The notes: generated by a model from the sequence alone, not told the origin. 64,000 nt of DNA from Halorientalis litorea (GCF_023028225.1 NZ_CP095482.1:1240001-1304000); one strand, 5' to 3'. Shown: positions 4,719-56,466, numbered from the stretch's first letter. Numbers and translations are program-made.

Positions 4719-5500
4719 CGCAGGCGTGCGACCGTCTCGGTCGGAACGTCGGCCGTCTCGGCGCGTTCGGCGAGGGCCGCGGCGCGCCGCTCGATTCGCC
4801 GGAGGCGGTCGGCGTCGGCCGCCAACTGGTCGGCCACGTCGCCGAGGCCGTCGAACGCCTCGGCCTCGGTCACCGTCGCGGCCGCCGCGGCGAGCGTCGT
4901 CTCCCCGGAGAGACGCTCCGCGATGTCGATCCGCTCCTCGACGCCGTCGAACAGGTCCGCGAGTGTCGCCGCCTGCTGGGTCTCGGAGCGACCGTGTGCA
5001 GTCGCCTCGTCGGTGGCCGTGCCCGTTCGCGTTTCGCCCCCGCCCGTACTCCCGTCGGCGTGTTCGTTCGCTGTCTCGGCCGCACAGTCGGTCTCGGCGG
5101 GCACGTCGGGGAGCGGCACGGCATCCCGTGGCGGACGCGGGTCCCCGAGTTCCCGGACGACGGCGTCCGGTTCGGCCGCGACGGACGGCACGTCCCCCCG
5201 TGACCCGAACGCGTCCGTCCGGTCCGGGTCCACGGCTGTCGTCTCCACGATACGCATCGGTTCGTCCGCGGGAGCCGCCGGCGTCGCGTACCCCACGGGC
5301 CGCGTCTCGGCGGCGGCGAGCGTCGTCTCGAAGCCCGCCTCGTCCCATCCCTCGGCCGGGACGCCGCCGTCACGTGGCGGCCAGACCGGGCCGTCGAGAC
5401 AGTTCTCGACGCGGACGCGACACGGGTGGTCGGAGGACAGGCGGCCAGTGACGAGCGTCACGCCGTCCGTGCGCGACGCCGTGCAGGTGAGCGAGACCAT
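4715..5500 (-). CDS. Uncharacterised acidic protein coupled to the MinD-like ATPase
   Basis: A 261-residue protein. The first 70 residues look like a compact beta domain (TGRLSSDHPCRVRVENCLDGPVW in two pieces, with two cysteines), followed by a long, low-complexity acidic linker (about residues 75-175). The C-terminal helical region contains ATLADLFDGVEERIDIAERL and a coiled coil rich in R and A. The stop overlaps the start of the MinD-like gene (ATGA at 4715-4718), so translation is coupled. I do not recognise the family. The domain plan (small beta domain, flexible linker, coiled coil) suits an adaptor that could be positioned by the ATPase; this is inference from context only. Confidence 0.75.
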   Translation of the reverse strand: MVSLTCTASRTDGVTLVTGRLSSDHPCRVRVENCLDGPVWPPRDGGVPAEGWDEAGFETTLAAAETRPVGYATPAAPADEPMRIVETTAVDPDRTDAFGSRGDVPSVAAEPDAVVRELGDPRPPRDAVPLPDVPAETDCAAETANEHADGSTGGGETRTGTATDEATAHGRSETQQAATLADLFDGVEERIDIAERLSGETTLAAAAATVTEAEAFDGLGDVADQLAADADRLRRIERRAAALAERAETADVPTETVARLR

Positions 5501-5525
5501 ACGCCGTCTGGCCACGGCTTCCGAT

Positions 5526-6341
5526 TTAAACCCTGACGACGGGTGCGTCGAGCCACGAGGCGGCCGCCGCGGGTACCCGGAACCGGTCACACGCCAGCAC
5601 CACCGGTGCCCGGAGGTCGGCGACGCGGCCGACTGCGAGGGCGGCGGTCACGGGGTCGGCTTCGAACGGGTCCGCGGGCGACGGGCCGGGTGCGTCGGCA
5701 ACCGCCGCCGCGTACGCCCCGCGCAGTTCGGCCACGAGGGACGCGCGCGCCGCCCGTTCGAGGTTCGCCACCTCGTCTTCGAGGCGGAGGCGTCGCTCGC
5801 GAGCGTCCCGTGCGTCCCTGAGCCGGTCTCTGTCGAGTCGTTGGCTCGCGGCGGTTCGGTCGGTCGCCACCTCCGAGAGGTCGCGGACGGCACTCGTCAG
5901 TGCCGCCTCGGCCTCGGCAACGGCCTCGTCGGTCCCCTGTTCGCGGAGGACCTGTACCCGCCCGCGGAGTTCCGCGACCCGCTCTTCGAGGCGTTCCGTC
6001 TCCGTGTCGGCCGCCGCGAACTCGCGGCGGACGGTATTGGTCGCTATCTCGGGCACCTCGATGTCGGCGAGTTGCTCGCGGACCGCCGCGATGTCGTCGT
6101 CCTGCGGTGCCGACAGTCCCCGGGAGCGGGCCGCCGCCGCGAGTGCCGTCCGCACCGACACCCCCATCTCCGGTCGAACGTACCCGACCCGCTCGTGGAC
6201 GGGACGGGGAGCCGGATTCTCGACGGTGATGGGGGTCTGCTCGCCCCTGACGGCCGCCGCGACTGTCGCGCCGTCGACCGGGACGTTCCGGGCGTCTATC
6301 GCCCGGCCAGTTCTGACGATGCCCCCGGCTTCGAGCATCAT
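5526..6341 (-). CDS. Uncharacterised coiled-coil protein of the MinD-like operon
   Basis: A 271-residue protein. The N-terminal 90 residues are compact and start MMLEAGGIVRTGRAIDARNV. A long coiled coil fills about residues 95-205, with heptad-like runs such as ETERLEERVAELRGRVQVLR and RLEDEVANLERAARASLVAE. A C-terminal beta-rich end contains APVVLACDRFRVPAAAASWL. The start ATG at 6339-6341 overlaps the stop of the upstream gene (ATGA), and the next gene begins 25 nt after the stop. The family is not recognised. Its position between a small conserved protein and a MinD-like ATPase suggests a structural or scaffold role. Confidence 0.75.
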   Translation of the reverse strand: MMLEAGGIVRTGRAIDARNVPVDGATVAAAVRGEQTPITVENPAPRPVHERVGYVRPEMGVSVRTALAAAARSRGLSAPQDDDIAAVREQLADIEVPEIATNTVRREFAAADTETERLEERVAELRGRVQVLREQGTDEAVAEAEAALTSAVRDLSEVATDRTAASQRLDRDRLRDARDARERRLRLEDEVANLERAARASLVAELRGAYAAAVADAPGPSPADPFEADPVTAALAVGRVADLRAPVVLACDRFRVPAAAASWLDAPVVRV

Positions 6342-6676
6342 AGCTCGCGGGCTTTCATCGCGTCCGGGTCCGGGTGGTCGGTTCCCGCCGCGAACTTGGC
6401 GTAGGGCGTACTCGGGTGGTCTCGGTCGGCGTAGGCCGTCGCCGCCTCGCGCACCTCCTCGGGGATGTCCTCGAACTCGTTGAGCGGCCGCGTCCGTTCC
6501 ACCTGCACGTCGCCGCCGTGGTCCGCCCGCAGTCGGAGCGCGAGGAAGGCACCGAACACGGACGCTTCGAGCAGGACCGCACGCCCGAACCGCCGGACGA
6601 CACAGTCCTCGTGAGTTCGGCACGCGTTCCGCAACGACCGCCGTGCCGCGCGGGAGTAAGTTACGACCAACAGCAC
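6338..6676 (-). CDS. Small conserved protein at the head of the MinD-like operon
   Basis: About 112 residues if translated from GTG at 6674-6676 (reads LLVVTYSRAARRSLRNACR); an ATG at 6715 would add 13 residues. I prefer the GTG because the sequence following it has the look of a family start and the extra residues are arginine/proline-rich like non-coding frame. It carries two cysteines (NACRTHEDCVVRR) and a basic N-terminal half, and ends in an acidic, proline-containing tail (DHPDPDAMKAREL). The stop overlaps the next gene by ATGA. Function unknown. The basic N-terminal helix could bind nucleic acid or a membrane surface. Confidence 0.65.
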   Translation of the reverse strand: MLLVVTYSRAARRSLRNACRTHEDCVVRRFGRAVLLEASVFGAFLALRLRADHGGDVQVERTRPLNEFEDIPEEVREAATAYADRDHPSTPYAKFAAGTDHPDPDAMKAREL

Positions 6677-6744
6677 ACTACCAACCGGCCCCCGACGTGT
6701 CAAAAGACTATCCAAACTGCCGAGAACGGAACGGGCGTGTCCGC

Positions 6745-7344
6745 TCAGTCGTCGTCGAGGGGGTACCGGGTCCGTATCGACACGTCGCTCCCGGAGAGGT
6801 TCACTTCCGCGTCGAACAGCGAGCGGAGGGTGTCGAGCGTCTGCTCGTCGTGCGCGCTCGGGTCGACGTGGAAGTGGGACACCGCCCCGGCACTGTACAG
6901 TTGGCCGGTCAGGGCGTGGAGGAACTCGTAGGCGGTTTCGAGGTCGACGTACTGCAGGAGCGCGGTCAGCGAGTCGAAACAGACCACTATCTCGCCGCTC
7001 CGTCCCGAGACGAACTCCGTAATCGTGATGCCGATACCGGTGAGGTCCGAGGGCGTCGATATCGTCTCGACGACCGCGGAGTCTAACTCCTCACCCGCAC
7101 CGATTCCGGGTGTCTCTCCGACGACGACGACGCCGAACTCCCCCGGGTCGGCCTCGTGTTCGTCCCGCCACGATTCGAGACACTGCGCGGCCTGTCTCGT
7201 GAACGTGACCCACAGCACGCTCGTCGTCTCCGGGTCGCCCTGCGAGAGGAGGTCGACACACACGTCGTCTGCCTCGTTGTTCATCGAGGACGCCCCCAGC
7301 ATAATCGTCGTCGCACCACCCAGTTGCTCCGTGATATCTGTCAT
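6745..7344 (-). CDS. Degenerate RecA/KaiC-like domain protein
   Basis: A 199-residue acidic protein beginning MTDITEQLGGATTIMLGASSM. The alternation of buried beta strands (TTIMLG, SVLWVTF, FGVVVVG, EIVVCFDSLTALLQY) matches a RecA/KaiC fold, and VVCFDSLTALL sits at the Walker B position. The glycine-rich Walker A loop is replaced by LGASSMNNEADD without a GKT, so ATP hydrolysis is doubtful. Such single-domain, ATPase-dead RecA-like proteins are common in haloarchaea, often near signal-transduction genes. The gene stands alone between the MinD-like operon and the genes behind mcm, in the same orientation. Function unknown. Confidence 0.7.
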   Translation of the reverse strand: MTDITEQLGGATTIMLGASSMNNEADDVCVDLLSQGDPETTSVLWVTFTRQAAQCLESWRDEHEADPGEFGVVVVGETPGIGAGEELDSAVVETISTPSDLTGIGITITEFVSGRSGEIVVCFDSLTALLQYVDLETAYEFLHALTGQLYSAGAVSHFHVDPSAHDEQTLDTLRSLFDAEVNLSGSDVSIRTRYPLDDD

Positions 7345-7416
7345 GTCCGTCCTCACCGGCACTCTGTCAGCCTATTCGGTGGTTCCCGCTAAAACCTTCG
7401 GGTGTCCGACCAGTAG

Positions 7417-7701
7417 CTAGCCGTCCTCAGTGGTCGTGACCCGTTCGACCGCCACGTCGTGGGCGTCGACCAGCGACCGCACGCGCTCGCGGGCCGCCTG
7501 CTCACCCGCCGCCATCACGACCATCCCCGCGGCCTGGCCGTCGCTCGTCACACGGTAGGCCGCCAGCTCCCCCTCGAACTCCGTCGCGTACGTCCGCAAC
7601 ACCCCCCGGACGCGGCGTTCGAGTCCCGAGAAATCCGTCTCGCCCGCCTCGAACTCCGCGAGGGCCTCCTCGACGTTCCGCAGTGCCGATATCCGGTCCA
7701 T
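7417..7701 (-). CDS. Small conserved protein directly behind mcm
   Basis: A 94-residue alpha/beta protein beginning MDRISALRNVEEALAEFE, with two amphipathic helices and a beta-hairpin region (ELAAYRVTSDGQAAGMVVMAA). Its ATG at 7699-7701 directly abuts the mcm stop codon (7702-7704) with no intervening base, so it is almost certainly translated by ribosomes finishing MCM. I do not recognise a named domain. The constant link with the replicative helicase suggests a replication- or repair-related role, but this is context only. Confidence 0.75.
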   Translation of the reverse strand: MDRISALRNVEEALAEFEAGETDFSGLERRVRGVLRTYATEFEGELAAYRVTSDGQAAGMVVMAAGEQAARERVRSLVDAHDVAVERVTTTEDG

Positions 7702-10700
7702 CTATGTCGTCCGGAGGTGGTCGTGTTGTGGCTCGTACACCTCGCCTTTCTGTTTCAGTTTGTCTATCTCGTGTTCGGCCTTCGACCGCTCCATCCCGGC
7801 CTCCTCCGCCCGTTCGAGGACGCGGTCGACCGGTGCCCCCTCGTCGTACTCGTCCTCGATTTCGGCGATGAGCGTCTTCAGGTTCTTGATGCGGTCCCGC
7901 TGTGTCTTCGAGGTACCCGTCTCGATGACGTCCGCGTCGAGTTCGCCCGTCTCGGGGTCCAACCCGATGGCCTCCAGACACGACCGCACGATTTCGATGA
8001 CGCGTTCGGCGTCCTCCCGCTCGACCGTATCCGACAGCCTGATGCGGGCACTCGCCTCCGCCAACCGCACCAACGCCTCCAGTTTCCGGGCCGTCACCGG
8101 CACCGGGGCGTCCTCGCCGGTCCCACGCGAGCGCAGGTCGACGTAGAACTCCCGTATCGCGCTCTTTGCCTCCTCGGTCATCGTCGGGTAGACGTTCCGT
8201 TTGGCGTAGGCCACGTACTTGCGCAGGAGTTCCGGCTCGATGGTCGGTGCCACGTCCTCGGTGACGCGTTCGACTTCCTCCTCGGTGTAGTCCGAAGCAC
8301 TCGTCTCCGTCCGGTGGGTGTTCAACTCGCCGGCGTAGTTGGTCGTCAGAATGTGCTCGGCGAGGTTCCGGTCCTCCTCCTCGTCGGGCTTGTCCGTCAC
8401 CGTAAAGATGAGGTCGAACCGCGAGATGAGGGCGGGTTCGAGGTCTATCTGCTCGGCGATGGACTCGTACTGGTCGAACCGGCCGTACTTGGGGTTGGCC
8501 GCACCGAGCAGCGAACAGCGCGATTTGAGGGTGGCGTTGATACCAGCTTTCGAGACGCTGATGGAGTTGTGGAGGACGACGCCCTCGCTGACGAACGTGT
8601 TCGTCGGTTCGACGGTCACGTCGTACACCCAGTCACAGGCGTACTCGCCCTCGTTTGGGACCGTCTCTACGTCGGTCACGCGATAGTATCGGAGGTCACA
8701 TCGTCGTTCGAGGGCGTCCGCTCGTCGCTCGAACTCGGTGAGTGTGTCTTCGACAGCGGTACGTGCGGCGTCGGTAAGTTCGCTACGTCTCTCGGCGTCG
8801 TAGCCGCCGTCTTCGGCGTAATGGATCGTGCTGGTCATCTCGCCGATTCGCTCTCCGAGTTCGCGCCCCGACCAGCCGACGGCCCCACGAACGTCGGCCA
8901 GCGTCTCGGCGTCAGTCAGACTGTCCCGCACTTCGTCCGCCCGCTCCCGGAGCGTGTCGAGTTCGTCCTCGACGGTCCCGCTTTGGACACCGAAGCCCTC
9001 GTCGAGATTGGGACGGACCTTGCCGGTCAGTCGAAGTCCGAGCAGCGAGCGTAGCTCCCGTATCTCCCGTGCTGCACTGGTCGGGAGTACGTCGTGATGG
9101 CGTGGCGTCTCTTCGCTCCGCTCGACGAACGCCCGAGCATCGTCGTACCGGTCGTCCGTGGACTCGACGACCCGATCGACGAACTGCTCGGTCGAGTCAC
9201 CCATCACGTAGACCTTCCACGAGTCCTCTGCGGAGTCGTGGTGGATGCGCGAAGCCACGCCGATCTTGGAGAGTGCATCTGCGTAGTCTCTTGCCAGCCC
9301 CGCAGAAGCCGTCGAGAACGACATCGCCTCGCTCTCGACGCCCCCATCGCCAGCGAACGCACCCACGAGGAATCGCCGGATCTCCTCTTCCGAGGCTCCG
9401 AGCACCGCCGCCGGAATTCGCTTGTCCCGTGCGGTATGCATTACCTCGGGGAAATTCTCCTCGAACCAGCGGAAGAGCTTGGTCGAGACCCACCGCTTCG
9501 TGACGGTGCCCGCGGCGTTTGTCGCGTCGGTACTCGCCATCCCGAACACGTCGTGCATCAGGTCAGCCGCCCGGGCGAGCAGGGGTTCGTCCTGGTTCGA
9601 GAACCCGATCTCGTGGGCCGAACCGGCGTCGGAGTGTCCCTCGGCGGTCATCAGACCGAGGAACTCCGCCAGATCCGGGGACAGGTCGTCGGGGAGGTCG
9701 ACGTCTTTCTCTTTGCCCTGCTGACTCTCGGGGTCGAGTTCGACGGGTTCCGCCGAGTTCGGGAGCTTCCGGGGTGCGGGAACGAACGTACCTTCTTCGA
9801 TACTGCTGGCTTCGACCGTCCCCACCTCGCCGCCGTCGTCCACGAACATCGGATGCTCCGGCGTCACCAGCACGTCCCGACCGTTCGAGAACGTCACCCG
9901 GACGAACTCGTCGGGGGCCTCGTGCCTGCTCACCCGGTCGACTGCCGTCTTCTCGACCTCGTTCGCGTCGAGGTCGACCGAGTGAACGCCCACGTCGTCG
10001 ACTGGCAGAATTTCACAGTCCACACCGTCGACGACCTCGTCCGATCGATCGGCCATCCGCTCGTCGACGAATTCACCGATATTCACTCGCCGGCCATCGG
10101 CGAGCAAAACCTCCGAATTCGGGTGGTATGACTGCTGTTCGAGTGCTTCGTGCATGGCCGACCGGTCTTCCGAGTTGTGGACGACCATCCCATTAGCGAC
10201 GAAGTTGTGTGTCCCTTCGACTGTCAGGTCGTACACCTTCGCCTCGCGGTTCGCCTCGATGGTGTCGAGTAGTTCGGCCGCGTCATCGCGAATGTCGGCA
10301 ACTCGTTCTTCCGTGACCGTGCGTACGTCGTCGAACCGATCCGTTTCGACGAGCCCATTGAACCAGCGGGAGACGGTCGAGCCAGCGACACCGACATCGT
10401 GTGCGATATCCTGATACGAAATGCCGTACGTATCGAGTGTCGAATCTATGTCGTCCCACGTGTCAGTAGCCGGCTCGGCGGACAGTAGCTGACGAGCACG
10501 CGGTTCAGCAGTGCCGGTGTCACAGCCCAGCAGATCTGCGAGCCGCTGTTTCTGAAGGGCGATCTGGTCCTCGTTAGCTTTCGTGGACGACACTGTCTCG
10601 ATCGATTGAACTTTTCGCCACTTCACGTCGCGGTAAACCAAGGATTGCAGTCCACTCAAATCGGTCTCCGCGACGGCAGTGACGAACGCCGAGAGACGCT

Positions 10701-33356: not shown

Positions 33357-34013
33357 CTACGCGACGAAGACGCCGTCACGTAGTCGCGGCACCACGTCGC
33401 TCTCGTTGAACTGAAGGAGTGCGTTCACGTCGTCGCCCAGTCCCAGTTCCCGCAGCCACCCGGCCGTCCCGCTCTCCTCGACAGTCGCCGCCAGCGACGC
33501 CGCGGCGTCCGTCGTCAGCCTGTCCTCGTAACACCGCCGGACGAGTTCGACGCCAGCCGAGTCCTCGGGAGTTGGGTCGCCACCCCGGCCGGCGGCGACC
33601 AGCCACGTCTCCCGGTCTCTCTCGGCGAGTGTCGACGCGACGGCGGCGGCGTTGACCGTGCTCCCGACGAAGATGGTCCCGTCGTGACCGATACGCTCGA
33701 ACGCGCGCGTCCCGTTCGAGGTGAGAATGCCGACCGGTCGGTCCGTGATGTCCTCGGGGAGCAACGACGGCAGCGGCGAGGCGTCGAACCCCTCGACGGG
33801 CGCGCCGCCCTGTTCGCCGACCAGTAACGCGTCCGTCTCGGCCCCGAACGAACGGGCGGCCTCGGGGTCCGCGAACGGGCGGACGTAGGCCGCACCGGCT
33901 TCGAGCAGGCGGACGATGCTGGTCGAGGAGATGATGACGTCGACCACCACGAAGTCGGCATCCGGTACCGGGTCGGGGACATCCTCCAAGCGGTCGACGG
34001 TGTGGAGCGGCAT
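33357..34013 (-). CDS. ComB-like 2-phosphosulfolactate phosphatase family protein
   Basis: A 218-residue protein with ComB-type motifs: FVVVDVIISSTSIVRLLEAG (acidic metal-binding start), ALLVGEQGGAPVEGFDASPLP, GILTSNGTRAFERIG and ACxAAG-like WLVAAGRGGDPTPEDSAG. ComB is a Mg-dependent phosphatase of coenzyme M synthesis, but non-methanogens including haloarchaea carry homologs, so the substrate here is probably a different phosphorylated hydroxy acid. The start ATG directly abuts the stop of the upstream kinase-like gene, so the two are coupled. Given the kinase, it could act on related phospho-compounds, which is an inference. Confidence 0.85.
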   Translation of the reverse strand: MPLHTVDRLEDVPDPVPDADFVVVDVIISSTSIVRLLEAGAAYVRPFADPEAARSFGAETDALLVGEQGGAPVEGFDASPLPSLLPEDITDRPVGILTSNGTRAFERIGHDGTIFVGSTVNAAAVASTLAERDRETWLVAAGRGGDPTPEDSAGVELVRRCYEDRLTTDAAASLAATVEESGTAGWLRELGLGDDVNALLQFNESDVVPRLRDGVFVA

Positions 34014-35069
34014 CTACAGCGGCCGGTCGCCCTCGATGATTTCGACGGCGTGGTCGGCCATCGTCGGGACGCCGTCCTCCATCATCTGATAGAGCGTGTT
34101 GTCCGAGTTGCCCATCAGGTAACGGGCGAAGAACATCTCGCCCAACGCGGCCATCTTGTACACCGCGAGCACCCGGTAGAAGCGTTGGTTCTCGACGGTG
34201 ACGCCCGTCTGCTCCTCGTAGCGGTCGACCAGTTCGCCGCGGGTGAGGTAGTCCTCGTGCGTGGTGAACGAGGGGGCCATCGTCTGCATCAGCGTCGTCA
34301 GGTCGTCCTCCGGGTCGAGCCAGAAGAAGAGCAACCACCCCAAGTCACAGAGCGGGTCCCCGAGCGTGGACATCTCCCAGTCCAACACCCCCGCGATTTC
34401 GGGCGGCGTCCCCGGCGCGAAGATGACGTTGTCGAGTTTGTAGTCGCCGTGGACCAGCGTGTGCGCCGGGTCCTCGGGGACGTTCTCGGCCAACCAGTCA
34501 CCGATACGCTCGATTTCGGGCACCTCGCGCTCGCTGGTCGTCTCCTCGAAGGCCCACTCGAACTGCTCGGTCCAGCGGTCGACCTGCCGCTCGGTGAACC
34601 CCTCTGGGGTGCCGAAGTCGCCCAGCCCCACGGCCTCGTAGTCGACGGTGTGGATGGCCGCGAGCGTGTCCACCATCTCCTCGCCGATGCCGCGCCGTGC
34701 ATCGGCGTCGCCGAACCGGTCGAGTTCGGAGAACCGCATCACGTCGCCGTCCAACCGCTCCATCACGTAGAACGGACACCCCATCACGCCGTCCTCGCTG
34801 GCGGCGACGGTCCGCGGCACGGGCACGTCACCCGCCTGTAGGGCGTCGACGACGCGGTACTCTCTGAGCACGTCGTGAGCCGTGTCGGCCGTCTCGCCCG
34901 GCGGCGGCCGCCGGACGACCAACTGCTGGTCCCCCCACGTGACGAACAGCGTCTCGTTCGAGAACCCCTGTTCGTGTCGCTCTACGTCGAACTCGTCTAC
35001 CCCCCCGAGTCGCTCCGCGAGGAACGTCCGCAGATTCCCGCGGTCGACGAGGTCGTCTGCGTCTGCCAT
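34014..35069 (-). CDS. APH/ACAD10-type phosphotransferase (small-molecule kinase)
   Basis: A 351-residue aminoglycoside phosphotransferase-fold kinase. The catalytic loop is HGDYKLDN (207-214), the metal-binding LDWE is at 229-232, and LGDPLCDLGWLL follows, exactly as in the kinase half of ACAD10/ACAD11 and bacterial LvaA-type enzymes. The N-lobe has QGFSNETLFVTWGDQQLVVR. It is divergent from a matching acyl-CoA dehydrogenase gene 84 nt away. In characterised systems this kinase phosphorylates the 4-hydroxyl of 4-hydroxyacyl-CoA. Its stop abuts the comB-like start. Confidence 0.92.
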   Translation of the reverse strand: MADADDLVDRGNLRTFLAERLGGVDEFDVERHEQGFSNETLFVTWGDQQLVVRRPPPGETADTAHDVLREYRVVDALQAGDVPVPRTVAASEDGVMGCPFYVMERLDGDVMRFSELDRFGDADARRGIGEEMVDTLAAIHTVDYEAVGLGDFGTPEGFTERQVDRWTEQFEWAFEETTSEREVPEIERIGDWLAENVPEDPAHTLVHGDYKLDNVIFAPGTPPEIAGVLDWEMSTLGDPLCDLGWLLFFWLDPEDDLTTLMQTMAPSFTTHEDYLTRGELVDRYEEQTGVTVENQRFYRVLAVYKMAALGEMFFARYLMGNSDNTLYQMMEDGVPTMADHAVEIIEGDRPL

Positions 35070-35153
35070 TGGAAGGTTGTTCCGAGAGGCAATTTAAAGA
35101 TGTTACTGAAAGAATGCAGTATAATTAACTCATCTGGTCGTTGAACTAAGCGC

Positions 35154-36413
35154 ATGGATATCGGATACCAAGACTCGGAGCGCGCACAGGAAGTCGCGGA
35201 GCGGACCCGTGCATTCGTCGACGAGGAGGTACTGCCGCGCGAGCGTGCGTTGTTCGGACAGCGTGACCACCGGAGCGACGCAGACCGGCAGGAAGAGGGG
35301 CGGGAACTGGTCGAGGAACTCCGGGAGATTGCCCGCGAGCGCGACGTGTTCGGCCCGCAGATTCCCGAGGAGTACGGCGGTCTCGGCCTCGATTTCGTGG
35401 ACCTGCTCCCGGTGTTCGAGCAGGCCGGACGGTCCATCTTCGCCATGGGCGCGATGCACGTCGCCGCCCCCGACGAGGGGAACATGGAAATCCTCGAACA
35501 CGCCGGCACCGAGGCACAGAAAGCGGAGTACCTCCGGCCGTTGGCCAACTGCGACATCTCGTCGGGGTTCTCGATGACCGAACCGATGGACGGCTGTGGG
35601 TCCGACGCAAAGCAGATACGGACCAGTGCCGAGAAGGACGGCGACGAGTGGGTCATCGACGGCCACAAGTGGTGGACCACGCACGGCCAGACCGGCGAAC
35701 CCGACTTCCTCATCGTCGTCGCCCGGACCAACGAGGAGGTCCACCCCTACGTCGGCACCTCGGCGTTCATCGTGCCCGCCGACGCCGACGGCGTCGAGTT
35801 CGTCCGGGACATCCCGCACATGGGCGAGTCCGGGATGGGACACTCGGAGGTGAAGTATCACGGCGTCCGCGTCCCCGAGGAGAACCTGCTGGGTCCGGAG
35901 GACGGCGGACTGGCCGTCGCCCAGCAACGCCTCGGGAAGGCCCGGCTGACCCACTGTATGCGATTTATGGGCATGGCCGACCGGTCGCTGGACGTGGCCA
36001 AGGCCTACATGGACGAGCGGTCGGCCTACGGCGACACGCTGAGCGAGAAGCAGTCGCTCCGGTTCGACATCGCCGACGCGCACATGCGTCTCCACGCCGC
36101 TCGGACGATGGTCCGCCACGCCGCTCGGCAGATAGCCGAGACAGGGAGTGCGGACACCGAGGTGTCGATGTCCAAGGTGTTCGCCGCCGAGACAGTCCAG
36201 GACATCGTCGACACGTGCGTGCAGGTGTGTGGCGGCAACGGTATCGGTAAGGACCTGCCGCTGGCCGACTTCTACGAGAACGTCCGCTGTTTCCGCATCA
36301 TCGACGGGGCCGACGAGGCGCACATGCGTTCCATCGCCAAGCGCGCCTTCGACGACGACGAACTCGAACCCGAAGAAATCGAGTACGTCACGCGGTTCGA
36401 CGGGGGCGAGTGA
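35154..36413 (+). CDS. Acyl-CoA dehydrogenase, ACAD10/11-like
   Basis: A 419-residue FAD-dependent enzyme with the ACAD plan: helical N-domain, beta middle domain (SMTEPMDGCGSDAKQI; KWWTTHGQT; MGESGMGH), and C-terminal four-helix domain (TCVQVCGGNGIGKDLPL). The usual catalytic glutamate region is replaced by RIIDGADEAH (D384), the DGxDExH signature of ACAD10/11-type enzymes. This suggests elimination/hydration chemistry on phosphorylated 4-hydroxyacyl-CoA rather than classical beta-oxidation. It is followed by an SDR gene after one base and faces the kinase gene. ETF encoded at 54.6-56.5 kb could accept electrons if net oxidation occurs. Confidence 0.93.
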   Translation: MDIGYQDSERAQEVAERTRAFVDEEVLPRERALFGQRDHRSDADRQEEGRELVEELREIARERDVFGPQIPEEYGGLGLDFVDLLPVFEQAGRSIFAMGAMHVAAPDEGNMEILEHAGTEAQKAEYLRPLANCDISSGFSMTEPMDGCGSDAKQIRTSAEKDGDEWVIDGHKWWTTHGQTGEPDFLIVVARTNEEVHPYVGTSAFIVPADADGVEFVRDIPHMGESGMGHSEVKYHGVRVPEENLLGPEDGGLAVAQQRLGKARLTHCMRFMGMADRSLDVAKAYMDERSAYGDTLSEKQSLRFDIADAHMRLHAARTMVRHAARQIAETGSADTEVSMSKVFAAETVQDIVDTCVQVCGGNGIGKDLPLADFYENVRCFRIIDGADEAHMRSIAKRAFDDDELEPEEIEYVTRFDGGE

Positions 36414-36414
36414 G

Positions 36415-37188
36415 ATGGGGGTCCTCGACCGCTTCCGACTGGACGACGACGTGGTGCTCGTCACCGGCGCGGCGTCGGGCATCGGGAAGGGCTACGCCGA
36501 GGCGTGTGCCGACGTGGGCGCGCGGTTGGCCCTCGCCGACATCGACGAGGAAGGCGTCGAGACGGTCGCTGCCGACCTCGACGCCGAGACGCTCGCGCTG
36601 ACGGTGGACGTGTCCGAACACGAGCAGGTCGAAGCGATGGTCGAAGAGACGGTCGACCACTTCGGCCGCCTCAACGCCGCCTTCGCCAACGCCGGCATCG
36701 GCCGCCTGAGTCTGCCGACCGACGACTACCCCGTCGAGGAGTGGGACGAGGTGATGGACGTGAACCTCGATGGCGTCTTCTACACCGTCCGGGAGGCCGC
36801 ACGGGCGATGGACGACGGCGGGTCCATCGTCACCACCGCCTCCGTCCTGAGTAGCGTCGCCTCCGACTTCCCCGGCGTCGCCGCCTACGTCGCCTCGAAG
36901 GGCGGGGTCGCACAGCTGACCAAGCAGGCCGCCGCCGACCTCGGTGAGCAGGGCATCCGCGTCAACGCCATCGCCCCCGGGTGGACCCACACGGGCATCG
37001 GCGGCGGCGCGTTCCGCAAGGACTCCGGGATGGACGCCATGCACGAGCAGATGGCCGAGGAGACAGTACTCGGTCGTCTCGGCGAACCGGACGACCTGAA
37101 GGGCATCGCCGTCTTCCTCGCCAGTGACGCCTCGTCGTACTGCACGGGGAGCGTCTTCACCGTGGACGGCGGCTGGACGACGACCTGA
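36415..37188 (+). CDS. SDR family oxidoreductase in the ACAD cluster
   Basis: A 257-residue classical short-chain dehydrogenase: TGAASGIGKG nucleotide loop, ADID acidic residue that favours NAD+, NAG motif in FANAGIG, catalytic serine in VTTASVLSS, and YVASKGG (YxxxK). VDGGWTT is the typical C-terminal end. The ATG at 36415 is one base after the ACAD stop, so it is translationally coupled. A natural role is oxidation of the 3-hydroxyacyl or related product of the kinase/ACAD pair. Confidence 0.92.
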   Translation: MGVLDRFRLDDDVVLVTGAASGIGKGYAEACADVGARLALADIDEEGVETVAADLDAETLALTVDVSEHEQVEAMVEETVDHFGRLNAAFANAGIGRLSLPTDDYPVEEWDEVMDVNLDGVFYTVREAARAMDDGGSIVTTASVLSSVASDFPGVAAYVASKGGVAQLTKQAAADLGEQGIRVNAIAPGWTHTGIGGGAFRKDSGMDAMHEQMAEETVLGRLGEPDDLKGIAVFLASDASSYCTGSVFTVDGGWTTT

Positions 37189-37248: not shown

Positions 37249-38715
37249 TCACGACGGTGCCCTGATTTCGGGGAAGTACCGCCCGTGGAAGGCGAAGGGA
37301 AGCGCGTGCGGCAACGTCACTCGGGCCCGTTCGGTGAGGTCCGCACCGTCGAGGACGACCAATCGTGAACGGTCGGCGGCGGCGTCGAGTGCGACGGTCA
37401 CGACGGCACCGTCGTCCTCGGCGTCGCCCTCGGGATTCGGGACGAAAATCGGTTCGCCGAAGTAGTCACCGCCGGCGTCGGCCTCGGTCACGTCGCCGGT
37501 TTCGGTGTCGTATTTCACCACGCCACGCGCCCACTCGGTCACTGGTTGGGGCATGTCCATCGCGTAGACGTAGCGATGCTCACGGCACCAGCGGGCCGGC
37601 GACACGGTCGGAAGGGCCGTGCCGCTGTCGTGTAGCACCTCGCGCGTGACGGTCACGTCCTCGGCGTCGTACCGACCGTGACCGGTCGGGTCACCGAGGT
37701 CCACGGTGAAGCGTTCGAGTCTGCCGGCGATGGCACCCATCTCCCCGTCGCGGAGGCTGTCGAGATACAGCGAGTCGATTGTCGTCGCGTCCGGGACTGT
37801 TTCGAGGTCGAACACGATTTCGGTGCCGCCCGCCCGCTCGAAAGCGTTGACGTGGTGGAACCCGAACACCGGGTCGGTCGTCGGTGCCGCGACGACCGTG
37901 CCACTCGTGCGGTCCAACACGACGACCCGTGTGCCCCTGTCGGGTTCCCACTCGAACTGCTCGATGAACGGGGCTTGACGCCCGGGTTTCAGGAAGCGGA
38001 GCGGGTCGACCCGCAGCGGGAATTCGGTCAACACAACGTACCGTGGCGTGAGCGCGAAACTGTGCATGTAGGCGGGTTCGTCCGTCGGAACGCTGCCGAC
38101 GTGCTCGCGTGTCCCCGGTTCGGGGATGGTGTAAACGTGGTACTGGCTCGTCCGACCGAACTCGGTGTCGACGTTCACGAGCGTGCCCGTCGTCGGGTCC
38201 CGCTTCAGGTGCGCACAGGAGAGCTGTCCCGACGGGGCGTCGCCGTCGTACTCGACGTGCCCCCGCAGGTCGAGGCTGTCGGGGTCGAGGGCGACCCATC
38301 GCGGCGACTCCGTGAGCGCGACGTAGCTGTCTCCGACCCGCTCGACGACGATGTTCGTGTTGTCGTAGGGGTCGGTGAGGAACGTGGCCAACCGCGAGCG
38401 CAGTGTCGTCTCGCCGGTCGCGAACCCACCCTCGAACTCGCCCACGCGGGCGGCTTCGTAGGCGTCCGTCCGGAGGAACTGGTTCCGGTAGTGGACTGCA
38501 GAGTCACCGTCAGCGTCCGCGGGGTCGAACGTGAACCGAGACACCATCGCCAGCCCGTCGAACCAGTGGTCGACGGCACTCCCGTCTGGGAACGAGAAAG
38601 CTCCGGGGCCGTTCCGAAGCAGACTTCCGGTCAGCCACCTAGGGAGGTCGCCTGTAACCGGGAGCGTGGCCGATGTCTCCTCGTGCAACGAGTGAAATCC
38701 CGGATGCGTACTCAT
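37249..38715 (-). CDS. Carotenoid cleavage oxygenase (RPE65/BCO family)
   Basis: A 488-residue seven-bladed propeller non-heme iron enzyme. The four iron histidines appear at expected places: H169 (CAHLKRD), H218 (YMHSFALT), H287 or H288 (FGFHHVNAF) and H477 (PFAFHGRYFPE). Second-shell acidic residues are also visible (VNVDTEFG, FDLETVPD). The family splits carotenoids, including beta-carotene to retinal. Haloarchaea normally make retinal with Brp/Blh, so this enzyme may be an alternative or may make apocarotenals. The ATG at 38715 is preferred over the GTG one codon earlier. Confidence 0.93.
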   Translation of the reverse strand: MSTHPGFHSLHEETSATLPVTGDLPRWLTGSLLRNGPGAFSFPDGSAVDHWFDGLAMVSRFTFDPADADGDSAVHYRNQFLRTDAYEAARVGEFEGGFATGETTLRSRLATFLTDPYDNTNIVVERVGDSYVALTESPRWVALDPDSLDLRGHVEYDGDAPSGQLSCAHLKRDPTTGTLVNVDTEFGRTSQYHVYTIPEPGTREHVGSVPTDEPAYMHSFALTPRYVVLTEFPLRVDPLRFLKPGRQAPFIEQFEWEPDRGTRVVVLDRTSGTVVAAPTTDPVFGFHHVNAFERAGGTEIVFDLETVPDATTIDSLYLDSLRDGEMGAIAGRLERFTVDLGDPTGHGRYDAEDVTVTREVLHDSGTALPTVSPARWCREHRYVYAMDMPQPVTEWARGVVKYDTETGDVTEADAGGDYFGEPIFVPNPEGDAEDDGAVVTVALDAAADRSRLVVLDGADLTERARVTLPHALPFAFHGRYFPEIRAPS

Positions 38716-38972
38716 CACCCGATAGTAGGCTGCGAGGGACTAATCGCTGTGGGGTGTGACAGCGACGCACGAACGCTGTGAGCGACGAGTTTCTGGCCCC
38801 AGTGTCTGTGAGTCTTCCAACTGGCCAATGCCCATCGCCTTCTCGGGGCCGGTCAGCGTGCTATCGTCGGTCTCAAAGTATGCGTACTCGCGGTTTCGGC
38901 GTTTGCGAACCACACGTCGTCGAGGCCGGTTCCGAGAGTCTTTTGCGCCGCGACGGTCAAGTAGGGGTACGC
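38716..38972. other. Intergenic region between divergent genes
   Basis: About 257 bases separate the carotenoid oxygenase from the next gene. Near its right end GAGTCTTTTGCGC (38937-38949) is a TATA-like element suited to the GTG start at 38973. No other gene or repeat is visible. Confidence 0.4.
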
Positions 38973-54641: not shown

Positions 54642-55613
54642 TCAGACGTCCGGCACTTCGCCGCCGAACTCCTCGATGAGCGCGGGCACGACGTCGAAGA
54701 GGTCGTCCTCGATGCCGTAGTCCGCGATGTCGTAGATGGGCGCACTCCCGTCGGTGTTGATGGCGACGATGGTGTCCGCACCCTTCATCCCGGCGACGTG
54801 CTGGACGGCCCCGGAGATACCGATGGCAATGTACACGTCCGGCGTGACGACCTTGCCGGACTGGCCGACCTGTCGGTTCTTGGGGAGCCAGCCGTTGTCG
54901 ACGATGGGACGGGACGAGGAGAGGGTGGCGTCCGTCGCGTCGACGAGTGCCTCGATAAGCGAGATGTTCTCCTCCTCCTCGATACCGCGGCCGATGGAGA
55001 TGAGGAACTCCGCTTCGCTGATGTCCACGTCGCCGCCGGCAACTTCCTCGAAGCCGGTGACGGTGGACTTGATTTCGCTCTCGTCGATGTCGGCGTCGAA
55101 GGCAGACACCTCGGCGTCACCGCTACCCTCCACTTTCGGCCACTCGGCCGGGCGGATGGTGACGACGGCGTTGTCCTCCTCGACGGCGAAGGTGGTTTCG
55201 ACCTTGCCACCGTACTGTTCGCGGGTGACGACGAGGGACCCGTCGACGTCGAAGTCGATGGCGTCGGTCACCAGCGGCAGACCGAGGCCCTCGGCGACGG
55301 CCGGCGCGTAGTCGAGACCGTTGACCGAGTTCGGCGCGAGCAGGTACTGCGGGTCGACATCGGCGTACACCTGTTCGACCGCCTGCGTGTACACGTCGTG
55401 GTTGAACTCCTCACCGTGGTCGACGGTGTGGATGGCGTCGACGCCCTCGCGGTTGAGGTCGTCGGCGAACGCGTCCACGTCGCCGCTGACGACGACGAGG
55501 TGCAGGTCGCCGCCAGTCTGGTCCGCGAGGTCGCGGCCCGCGGTAATCATCTCGTAACTCACGTCGCGCAGTTCGCCACGGCGGTGTTCCGTGACGGCGA
55601 GCACGTCGCTCAT
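54642..55613 (-). CDS. etfA: Electron transfer flavoprotein alpha subunit
   Basis: A 323-residue FAD-binding ETF alpha (FixB-type). The C-terminal FAD domain is complete: SSSRPIVDNGWLPKNRQVGQ, then SGKVVTPDVYIAIGISGAVQ and HVAGMKG, the ETF-alpha signature. It accepts electrons from acyl-CoA dehydrogenases (one is at 35.2-36.4 kb) and passes them to the quinone pool. The ATG overlaps the stop of a 21-codon open frame which itself overlaps the etfB stop. The gene ends at repeat copy C. Confidence 0.94.
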   Translation of the reverse strand: MSDVLAVTEHRRGELRDVSYEMITAGRDLADQTGGDLHLVVVSGDVDAFADDLNREGVDAIHTVDHGEEFNHDVYTQAVEQVYADVDPQYLLAPNSVNGLDYAPAVAEGLGLPLVTDAIDFDVDGSLVVTREQYGGKVETTFAVEEDNAVVTIRPAEWPKVEGSGDAEVSAFDADIDESEIKSTVTGFEEVAGGDVDISEAEFLISIGRGIEEEENISLIEALVDATDATLSSSRPIVDNGWLPKNRQVGQSGKVVTPDVYIAIGISGAVQHVAGMKGADTIVAINTDGSAPIYDIADYGIEDDLFDVVPALIEEFGGEVPDV

Positions 55614-55675
55614 GCGAGGTCACCTCCGGTGACGAGCAGGAGGTCGTCGCGCACGAAGTGTGCGACGGAACTCAT
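55610..55675 (-). CDS. 21-residue mini-ORF bridging etfB and etfA
   Basis: An ATG at 55673-55675 overlaps the etfB stop (ATGA), and its TGA at 55610-55612 overlaps the etfA start (ATGA). The peptide begins MSSVAHFVRDDLLLVTGG. Continuous stop/start overlap across a 58-nt gap would let ribosomes travel from etfB to etfA without reinitiating over untranslated RNA. It may simply be a translational coupler; whether the peptide has a function is unknown. Chance occurrence is possible but would require two precise overlaps plus an open frame. Confidence 0.4.
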   Translation of the reverse strand: MSSVAHFVRDDLLLVTGGDLA

Positions 55676-56466
55676 CCTTCGACGACCCCCTTGTCCCGCA
55701 GGAAGTCAGCAAGTTGCCCCGCCGTCTCCTCGGCGTCGCCCTCCCAGATGGTGGCGTCGCCCTCGGATTCGGGTTCGTACATGCTCGTGCGGTCGAGCGG
55801 GCTCTCGGTCACCGAGGCGTCCACGTCGAGGTCGTCGAGCGAGTGGACATCCAGCGGCTTGCTCTGTGCCTGACGGATACCGCGCAGGCTGGCGTACCGC
55901 GGTTCGTTGATACCGGACTGGATGGTCAGCACGGCGGGCACCTCCACGTCGGTCAGCTCCTCGACGCCGCCTTCGAGTTCGCGGTGGACGCTGGCGACGC
56001 CACCCTCGATGTCCAGTTCGAGGTCGTTGACGACAGCGGCCCACTCGAAGTCGATTTTCTCCGCGAGCGCGACGCCGGTCGCACCGTTGGATTCGTCGCC
56101 GGACTGGACGCCCGAGAGGACGAGGTCCGGGTCCTCCTCTTCGACGACTGCGGCCAGCAGTTCTGCCTTGGCGTCGACATCGAGGTACGCGGAACCAGCG
56201 AGGTCGTCGTTCCAGACGCGGACGGCGCGGTCCGCACCCTTCGCCAGCCCCATCCGGATGGTCTCCTCGGACCGCTCCGGACCGATTGTCGCTGTGACGA
56301 CTTCCACGTCGTCGTTCTCCTCGCTGATCTGGACAGCCTCCTCGATGGCGTAGTCGTCCCACTCGTTGAGGTCGTATTCGAGGTACTGGTCGGCGATGTC
56401 ACCGCCCGAAATCTCGAACTCGTCCTCGACTTCCGCCACCTCCTTTACCGTGACAAGAATCTTCAT
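55672..56466 (-). CDS. etfB: Electron transfer flavoprotein beta subunit
   Basis: A 264-residue ETF beta (FixA-type). MKILVTVKEVAEVEDEF, LNEWDDYAIEEAVQISEE and VVTATIGPERSEETIRMGLA are typical, as is PDLVLSGVQSGDESNGATGV. It binds AMP and the redox partner dehydrogenase. ATG at 56466 gives the family start. It is the first gene of the etfB-etfA unit and reads towards repeat copy C. Confidence 0.94.
   Translation of the reverse strand: MKILVTVKEVAEVEDEFEISGGDIADQYLEYDLNEWDDYAIEEAVQISEENDDVEVVTATIGPERSEETIRMGLAKGADRAVRVWNDDLAGSAYLDVDAKAELLAAVVEEEDPDLVLSGVQSGDESNGATGVALAEKIDFEWAAVVNDLELDIEGGVASVHRELEGGVEELTDVEVPAVLTIQSGINEPRYASLRGIRQAQSKPLDVHSLDDLDVDASVTESPLDRTSMYEPESEGDATIWEGDAEETAGQLADFLRDKGVVEG

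Follow-up and report, generated by a model that had tools for sequence, protein, structure and literature searches.

The Cluster and Its Genes

The window analyzed here, a stretch of 64,000 nucleotides, corresponds to C1:1240001-1304000 of the 3.2 Mb genome of the haloarchaeon Halorientalis litorea. The nearest named relatives at the locus are Halorientalis species, whose ACAD proteins are 85-87% identical. Four genes, designated PHOS, KIN, ACAD, and SDR, are clustered at positions 33357-37188 of the window. PHOS (33357..34013, minus strand) encodes a ComB-like protein of 218 aa with the 2-phosphosulfolactate phosphatase fold (PF04029, E 5e-38), and KIN (34014..35069, minus strand) encodes an APH-family protein of 351 aa (PF01636, E 4e-49), a candidate 4-hydroxyacyl-CoA kinase. 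The stop codon of KIN abuts the start of PHOS, with a gap of 0 nt. ACAD (35154..36413, plus strand) encodes a protein of 419 aa of the ACAD10/11-LvaC type, in which all the acyl-CoA dehydrogenase domains are found and which is a candidate for eliminating phosphate from 4-phosphoacyl-CoA. SDR (36415..37188, plus strand) encodes a classical short-chain dehydrogenase of 257 aa (PF13561, E 3e-67) in a position like that of LvaD; its ATG, at 36415, lies 1 nt past the ACAD stop, and the ORF call had begun at 36148.

KIN and ACAD are transcribed divergently. The 84 nt between them (35070..35153) are AT-rich and presumably serve as a two-way promoter; no convincing promoter motif shared with the relatives was found in this region, which is not strongly conserved. 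Because the four genes are conserved in other genomes, chance ORFs are ruled out. The first-pass annotation had described four genes here, with a kinase and a dehydrogenase as divergent neighbors and an SDR following, and in all these respects it was accurate. Convergent with SDR is a gene for an RPE65-family carotenoid oxygenase (37249-38718 of the window, minus strand, E 1e-114); it was considered as a part of the system and rejected, because it is not beside the cluster in the relatives.

Diagnostic Residues of ACAD, KIN, and SDR

In the structure of mouse ACAD11, R626, H634, and R637 form salt bridges with the 4-phosphate, D753 is the catalytic base, and R631 is a residue common to other ACADs (PMC12440821). 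In an alignment with PDB sequences, these five positions correspond to R259 (R626), R264 (R631), H267 (H634), R270 (R637), and D384 (D753) of the haloarchaeal ACAD. The first four lie in the segment RLGKARLTHCMR (35928..35963, plus strand), which includes the phosphate-binding HCMR motif, and D384 lies in the segment DGADEAH (36303..36323, plus strand). The earlier reading of RIIDGADEAH, in which an Asp replaces the usual catalytic Glu, is therefore correct. In an alignment of 111 ACADs, the signature R-R-H-C-M-R-D is complete in 97 of the 102 members of the family, and in the remaining five the deviation is confined to H, C, or M. None of nine other ACADs sampled from the same genome has the full signature or the Asp, and eight of the nine lack the Arg of HCMR.

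The best PDB matches of ACAD are 4HR3 (E 7e-66) and ACAD11 itself (8V3U, E 3e-65); the next ACAD follows only at 1e-47. In a maximum-likelihood tree, the haloarchaeal ACADs, including those of Haloarcula, Halorubrum, and Natrinema species, form a single clade (support 99) and group with mouse ACAD11, 4HR3, and the bacterial HCMR enzymes (SH-aLRT 100), with the ordinary ACADs of the genome outside; the tree was built by a quick method that gave long-branch warnings, and the branching of the bacterial lineages inside the clade is unsure.

KIN matches the kinase domain of ACAD11 with an E value of 6e-46. Its catalytic loop, HGDYKLDN (34428..34451, minus strand; residues 207-214), contains D209 and N214, and in the alignment to 8V3U/8V3V (PMC12440821) D209, N214, and R161 correspond to mouse D220, N225, and R176, that is, to the catalytic Asp, the catalytic Asn, and a CoA-contact Arg located between helix E and the catalytic loop. 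A further conserved Arg of KIN, R69, precedes the alpha-C Glu; the mouse Arg aligned with it counts as residue 84, whereas the CoA-contact Arg that the paper places beside this Glu is R86, so that R69 is only a possible counterpart of R86. KIN also has an LDWE motif, so that both kinase motifs listed in the annotation are present. One kinase gene of the family (in genome G221) seemed to contain an in-frame TGA; this was only apparent, since the codon is the stop at the end of the gene, and an intact kinase is encoded.

SDR carries the motifs TGAASGIG, NAG, and YVASK. A gene of this type is found at the corresponding position in Halorientalis, Halocatena, and strain YIM A00010, and none was found beside the copies in Haloglomus and Halorutilus, both of which have PHOS. 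A kinase, an ACAD with LvaC-type residues, and an SDR are found together, as in the Lva operon, with LvaC and LvaD compared through the accounts of later papers. The genes profiled between 29.5 and 43.6 kb of the window include neither LvaB nor the CoA ligase LvaE.

Co-Occurrence and Genomic Context of KIN and ACAD

With cut-offs of E < 1e-100 for KIN and E < 1e-90 for ACAD, both genes are present in 53 of 116 Halobacteria genomes and neither in 63; no genome has one alone (Fisher p 2.5e-34, uncorrected for shared ancestry). In another three genomes the only kinase is a distant one (39-40% identity), and there is no such ACAD. The two genes lie within 400 nt of each other in 25 pairs, and 23 of these 25 are divergent. 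As a check on its own proposal, the annotation had named the co-occurrence of all four genes. KIN and ACAD occur together in all 53 genomes that have either; PHOS occurs in few genomes, and SDR is missing at some of the loci with PHOS.

The orthologous haloarchaeal loci carry genes that, named from sequence reading, encode 3-hydroxyacyl-CoA dehydrogenase/enoyl-CoA hydratase, enoyl-CoA hydratase, MaoC, acyl-CoA ligase, and SDR proteins. From these beta-oxidation genes, the pair looks catabolic, feeding beta-oxidation. Among bacterial relatives on plasmids, an APH kinase is found near an HCMR-type ACAD in 14 of the 16 loci read, frequently accompanied by an SDR.

The present genome has a second divergent KIN-ACAD pair (C1:189752-192150) and in total three HCMR ACADs, two of them with a divergent kinase. 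The third HCMR-type ACAD (C1:1515661-1516866, locus L179) has no adjacent kinase, and a gene that is P450-like by sequence lies about 2 kb away. There is also a third KIN paralog (C1:2259935-2260951; L180:4433-5485), which is more distant (41%) and has no HCMR ACAD nearby.

A Candidate Pathway for 4-Hydroxy Acids

The residues of ACAD and KIN, the tree, the co-occurrence, and the beta-oxidation neighbors all support the proposal, already made in the annotation, of a split ACAD10/11-like system. Judging from sequence, we consider it probable that this haloarchaeon has a two-protein pathway for 4-hydroxyacyl-CoA resembling ACAD10/11 and LvaA/LvaC. In the reactions that we infer, KIN would use ATP to phosphorylate the 4-hydroxyl group of a 4-hydroxyacyl-CoA. 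ACAD would then grip the 4-phosphate with R259, H267, and R270, D384 would deprotonate C2, and an internal redox reaction assisted by FAD would expel the phosphate, giving a 2-enoyl-CoA that could enter beta-oxidation. SDR most likely makes or oxidizes the hydroxyl group (levulinyl-CoA/4-hydroxyacyl-CoA), as LvaD does, its direction being presumptive, like the chain length of the substrate.

The parallels can be described system by system. Animal ACAD10 and ACAD11 (8V3U, 2WBI; PMC12440821, PMC11342911) likewise combine an APH kinase, with the equivalents of D220, N225, and R176, and an ACAD with the Asp, the HCMR motif, and the upstream Arg, and in ACAD10 a module with a phosphatase fold is attached at the kinase. 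However, the animal proteins are single polypeptides, whereas the version described here is archaeal and consists of two divergent genes, with a ComB-like rather than a HAD protein and a separate SDR. LvaABCDE of Pseudomonas putida and the cluster of P. citronellolis LA18T (PMC6692424) share with our cluster a separate kinase, an LvaC-type ACAD, and an SDR, and in P. citronellolis a phosphatase-family gene also adjoins the kinase. Compared with the Lva clusters, the cluster in the window has no LvaB or ligase, its genes are divergent, and its phosphatase is ComB-like instead of a histidine phosphatase.

Alternatively, the substrates may not be levulinate-type or straight-chain 4-hydroxy acids; the same chemistry could act on a different gamma-hydroxy thioester, for example that of a branched, isoprenoid, or steroid-like acid. 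The bacterial clusters with HCMR-type ACADs often sit amid diverse catabolic genes, and the presence in this genome of three such ACADs, two with a divergent kinase, indicates that their substrates have probably diverged. We regard this as a serious possibility, somewhat short of an even chance; it is compatible with the pathway outlined above and narrows it.

PHOS as the Partner of KIN

Orthologs of PHOS (48-73% identical) are present in 12 of 391 Halobacteria genomes, the present one included. In 10 of the 12, no more than 50 nt separate PHOS from KIN, and in one the distance is about 2.9 kb; the exception (G270, C3:41684-42337, locus L181) has a PHOS ortholog of 54% identity and no close KIN. 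To these are added the named genomes of Haloglomus, Halorutilus, strain YIM A00010, and, on a plasmid, Halocatena, in all of which PHOS adjoins KIN. The KINs linked to PHOS form one clade (97), and so do the ACADs, if the unplaced row L112 is set aside. Because the kinase and dehydrogenase clades are each single and yet drawn from several families, the coupling between PHOS and KIN is old and has been kept. PHOS is thus the operon partner of KIN and no chance neighbor, and the annotation was right to see a ComB-like phosphatase coupled to the kinase gene.

An AlphaFold model of PHOS built from 23 sequences has a pLDDT of 93.9 and superposes on ComB 1VR0 with a TM score of 0.88; the fold from the single sequence (pLDDT 36) was useless. 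PHOS resembles ComB (PF04029; 1VR0, 2Z0J, 2YYV) in its fold and in most of the invariant residues; the conserved positions that it keeps include D25, E67, D77, N100-G-T-R103, N121, and D151. It differs from ComB in having Ile in place of the Arg of the canonical D-x-x-R-A motif, in falling below the curated NCBIfam cut-offs (71 vs 175 bits), and in being linked to a kinase instead of ComA. Since the Arg of DxxRA is missing, catalysis by PHOS is uncertain. In haloarchaeal PF04029 proteins outside this ortholog group (about 30-36% identical), more of the ComB residues are gone, GE and NGTR included, and KIN was not found within the 1.5 kb flanks read around their genes. Most haloarchaeal KIN/ACAD pairs have no PHOS; the ORFs flanking these pairs, picked crudely, did not include a histidine phosphatase either.

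The favored role of PHOS is that of a clean-up phosphatase, followed by that of a kinase regulator and then that of a true ComB. Co-transcribed with KIN, PHOS most likely hydrolyzes either the 4-phosphoacyl-CoA left unused by ACAD or the free 4-phospho-acid, a dead end, and this would keep phosphate and carbon from being trapped.

Phosphatases at the Kinase in Bacteria and Animals

The annotation had called the phosphatase an unusual addition. The remark holds, but the arrangement is not as unusual as was supposed: in bacterial relatives, a histidine phosphatase frequently takes this position. Among the 16 plasmid loci read, five have one at the kinase: two in Thermus, two in Deinococcus, and one in Rhodobacteraceae. 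It adjoins the kinase, or in Thermus lies one gene further, and its catalytic RHG motif is intact. These clusters (L148, L150, L151, L152, and L161) have the same ACAD and kinase families as ours, an SDR, and a nearby phosphatase; they differ in the histidine phosphatase fold, and Thermus adds a DUF6285 protein at the kinase. This protein, of 116 aa, is encoded directly 3' of the kinase (L148:7128-7478, L152:6083-6433), and its size and place fit LvaB; if it is LvaB-like, this would be a lead for a family of unknown function. In P. citronellolis LA18T grown on levulinate, the cluster carries lvaA, a histidine phosphatase gene, lvaC, and lvaD, with no lvaB; it has genes induced by levulinate, and the authors asked what the role of the phosphatase might be (PMC6692424). 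In animals, the kinase of ACAD10 is fused to a HAD domain, which has negligible phosphatase activity and restrains the kinase, and free 4-phospho-acid was detected in cells running the ACAD10/11 pathway (PMC11342911).

That one kinase is accompanied by phosphatases of three unrelated folds suggests a need to keep the phospho-intermediate, or its free acid, in check. Tentatively, we extend this to 4-hydroxyacyl-CoA kinases in general: they may have a hitherto unnoticed need for a partner phosphatase, which clears the 4-phospho intermediate or the free acid or restrains the kinase, and this need may have been met at least three times by unrelated folds, as HAD in animal ACAD10, as a histidine phosphatase in bacteria, and as a repurposed ComB in haloarchaea. 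Among the open-licence papers searched, we found none linking these bacterial and animal findings.

In a second reading, PHOS partners the kinase in a non-catalytic or allosteric way, comparable to LvaB or the HAD domain of ACAD10, and controls the flux into the phospho-intermediate. The HAD domain, in which no phosphatase activity was measurable, holds its kinase in check (PMC11342911), and LvaB is an essential protein that binds LvaA, its gene being absent from the P. citronellolis cluster that has the phosphatase-family gene (PMC6692424). Our cluster, too, is without LvaB, and PHOS lacks one Arg of the ComB motif. However, PHOS retains GE and NGTR, which the widespread haloarchaeal PF04029 proteins have lost, and the bacterial histidine phosphatases in the equivalent place retain the catalytic RHG, so that this reading seems to us rather unlikely.

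The third reading is that PHOS is simply the ComB of this genome, acting with ComA in sulfolactate synthesis, and that its adjacency to KIN is a historical accident. Its fold and family are those of ComB, the genome has ComA on contig 2, and PHOS is the sole PF04029 protein of the genome. Against this, ComA occurs in 59 of the 391 haloarchaeal genomes, yet of the 12 genomes with PHOS only 3 have ComA, while 11 have KIN; ComA is not beside PHOS in the loci read; and PHOS scores far under the ComB cut-offs and lacks the DxxRA Arg. In addition, the ComA gene of this genome adjoins a histidine phosphatase gene, a possible performer of the ComB step. Co-occurrence and neighborhood thus disfavor PHOS as the partner of ComA, and we hold this reading to be improbable.

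The ComA gene (phosphosulfolactate synthase, PF02679) is located at C2:46119-46865 (L177:6072-6905, neighbors at 5346-8401), beside genes for the histidine phosphatase and an MmgE/PrpD protein. This arrangement suggests a sulfolactate pathway with a histidine phosphatase in place of ComB. As part of the same tentative joint reading as the general need for a partner phosphatase, the present haloarchaeon may show the reverse swap, with a histidine phosphatase placed beside ComA. In other haloarchaea (L165, L166, and L172), a PF04029 gene has a more divergent ComA (about 30% identical) as a neighbor 0.5-0.7 kb away, a more ComB-like layout.

Finally, that ACAD is an ordinary ETF-dependent acyl-CoA dehydrogenase and that some unrelated small molecule is the substrate of the APH kinase is very improbable: the family names are generic, APH proteins have many substrates, and by ORF reading there are apparently ETF-like genes in the window (54642-56466), but ordinary ACADs lack the catalytic Asp, HCMR, and the upstream Arg, and this ACAD strictly co-occurs with KIN and sits with ACAD11 in the tree.

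Significance

The chemistry and the protein families of the preferred reading, a 4-hydroxyacyl-CoA pathway with PHOS as its clean-up phosphatase, are already known; the lineage and the ComB-like partner are new. The first-pass annotation had supposed that a haloarchaeal 4-hydroxy-acid pathway was undescribed, and we likewise found no prior account among the open-licence papers searched. The recently elucidated ACAD10/11 pathway would be extended by these observations to about half of the sampled haloarchaea. Because Haloarcula, Halorubrum, and Natrinema bear the ACAD, they are possible hosts for genetics. The open remarks of two papers, one on the HAD domain of ACAD10 and the other on the phosphatase of P. 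citronellolis, merge into one testable idea, namely the control or clean-up of 4-phosphoacyl compounds.
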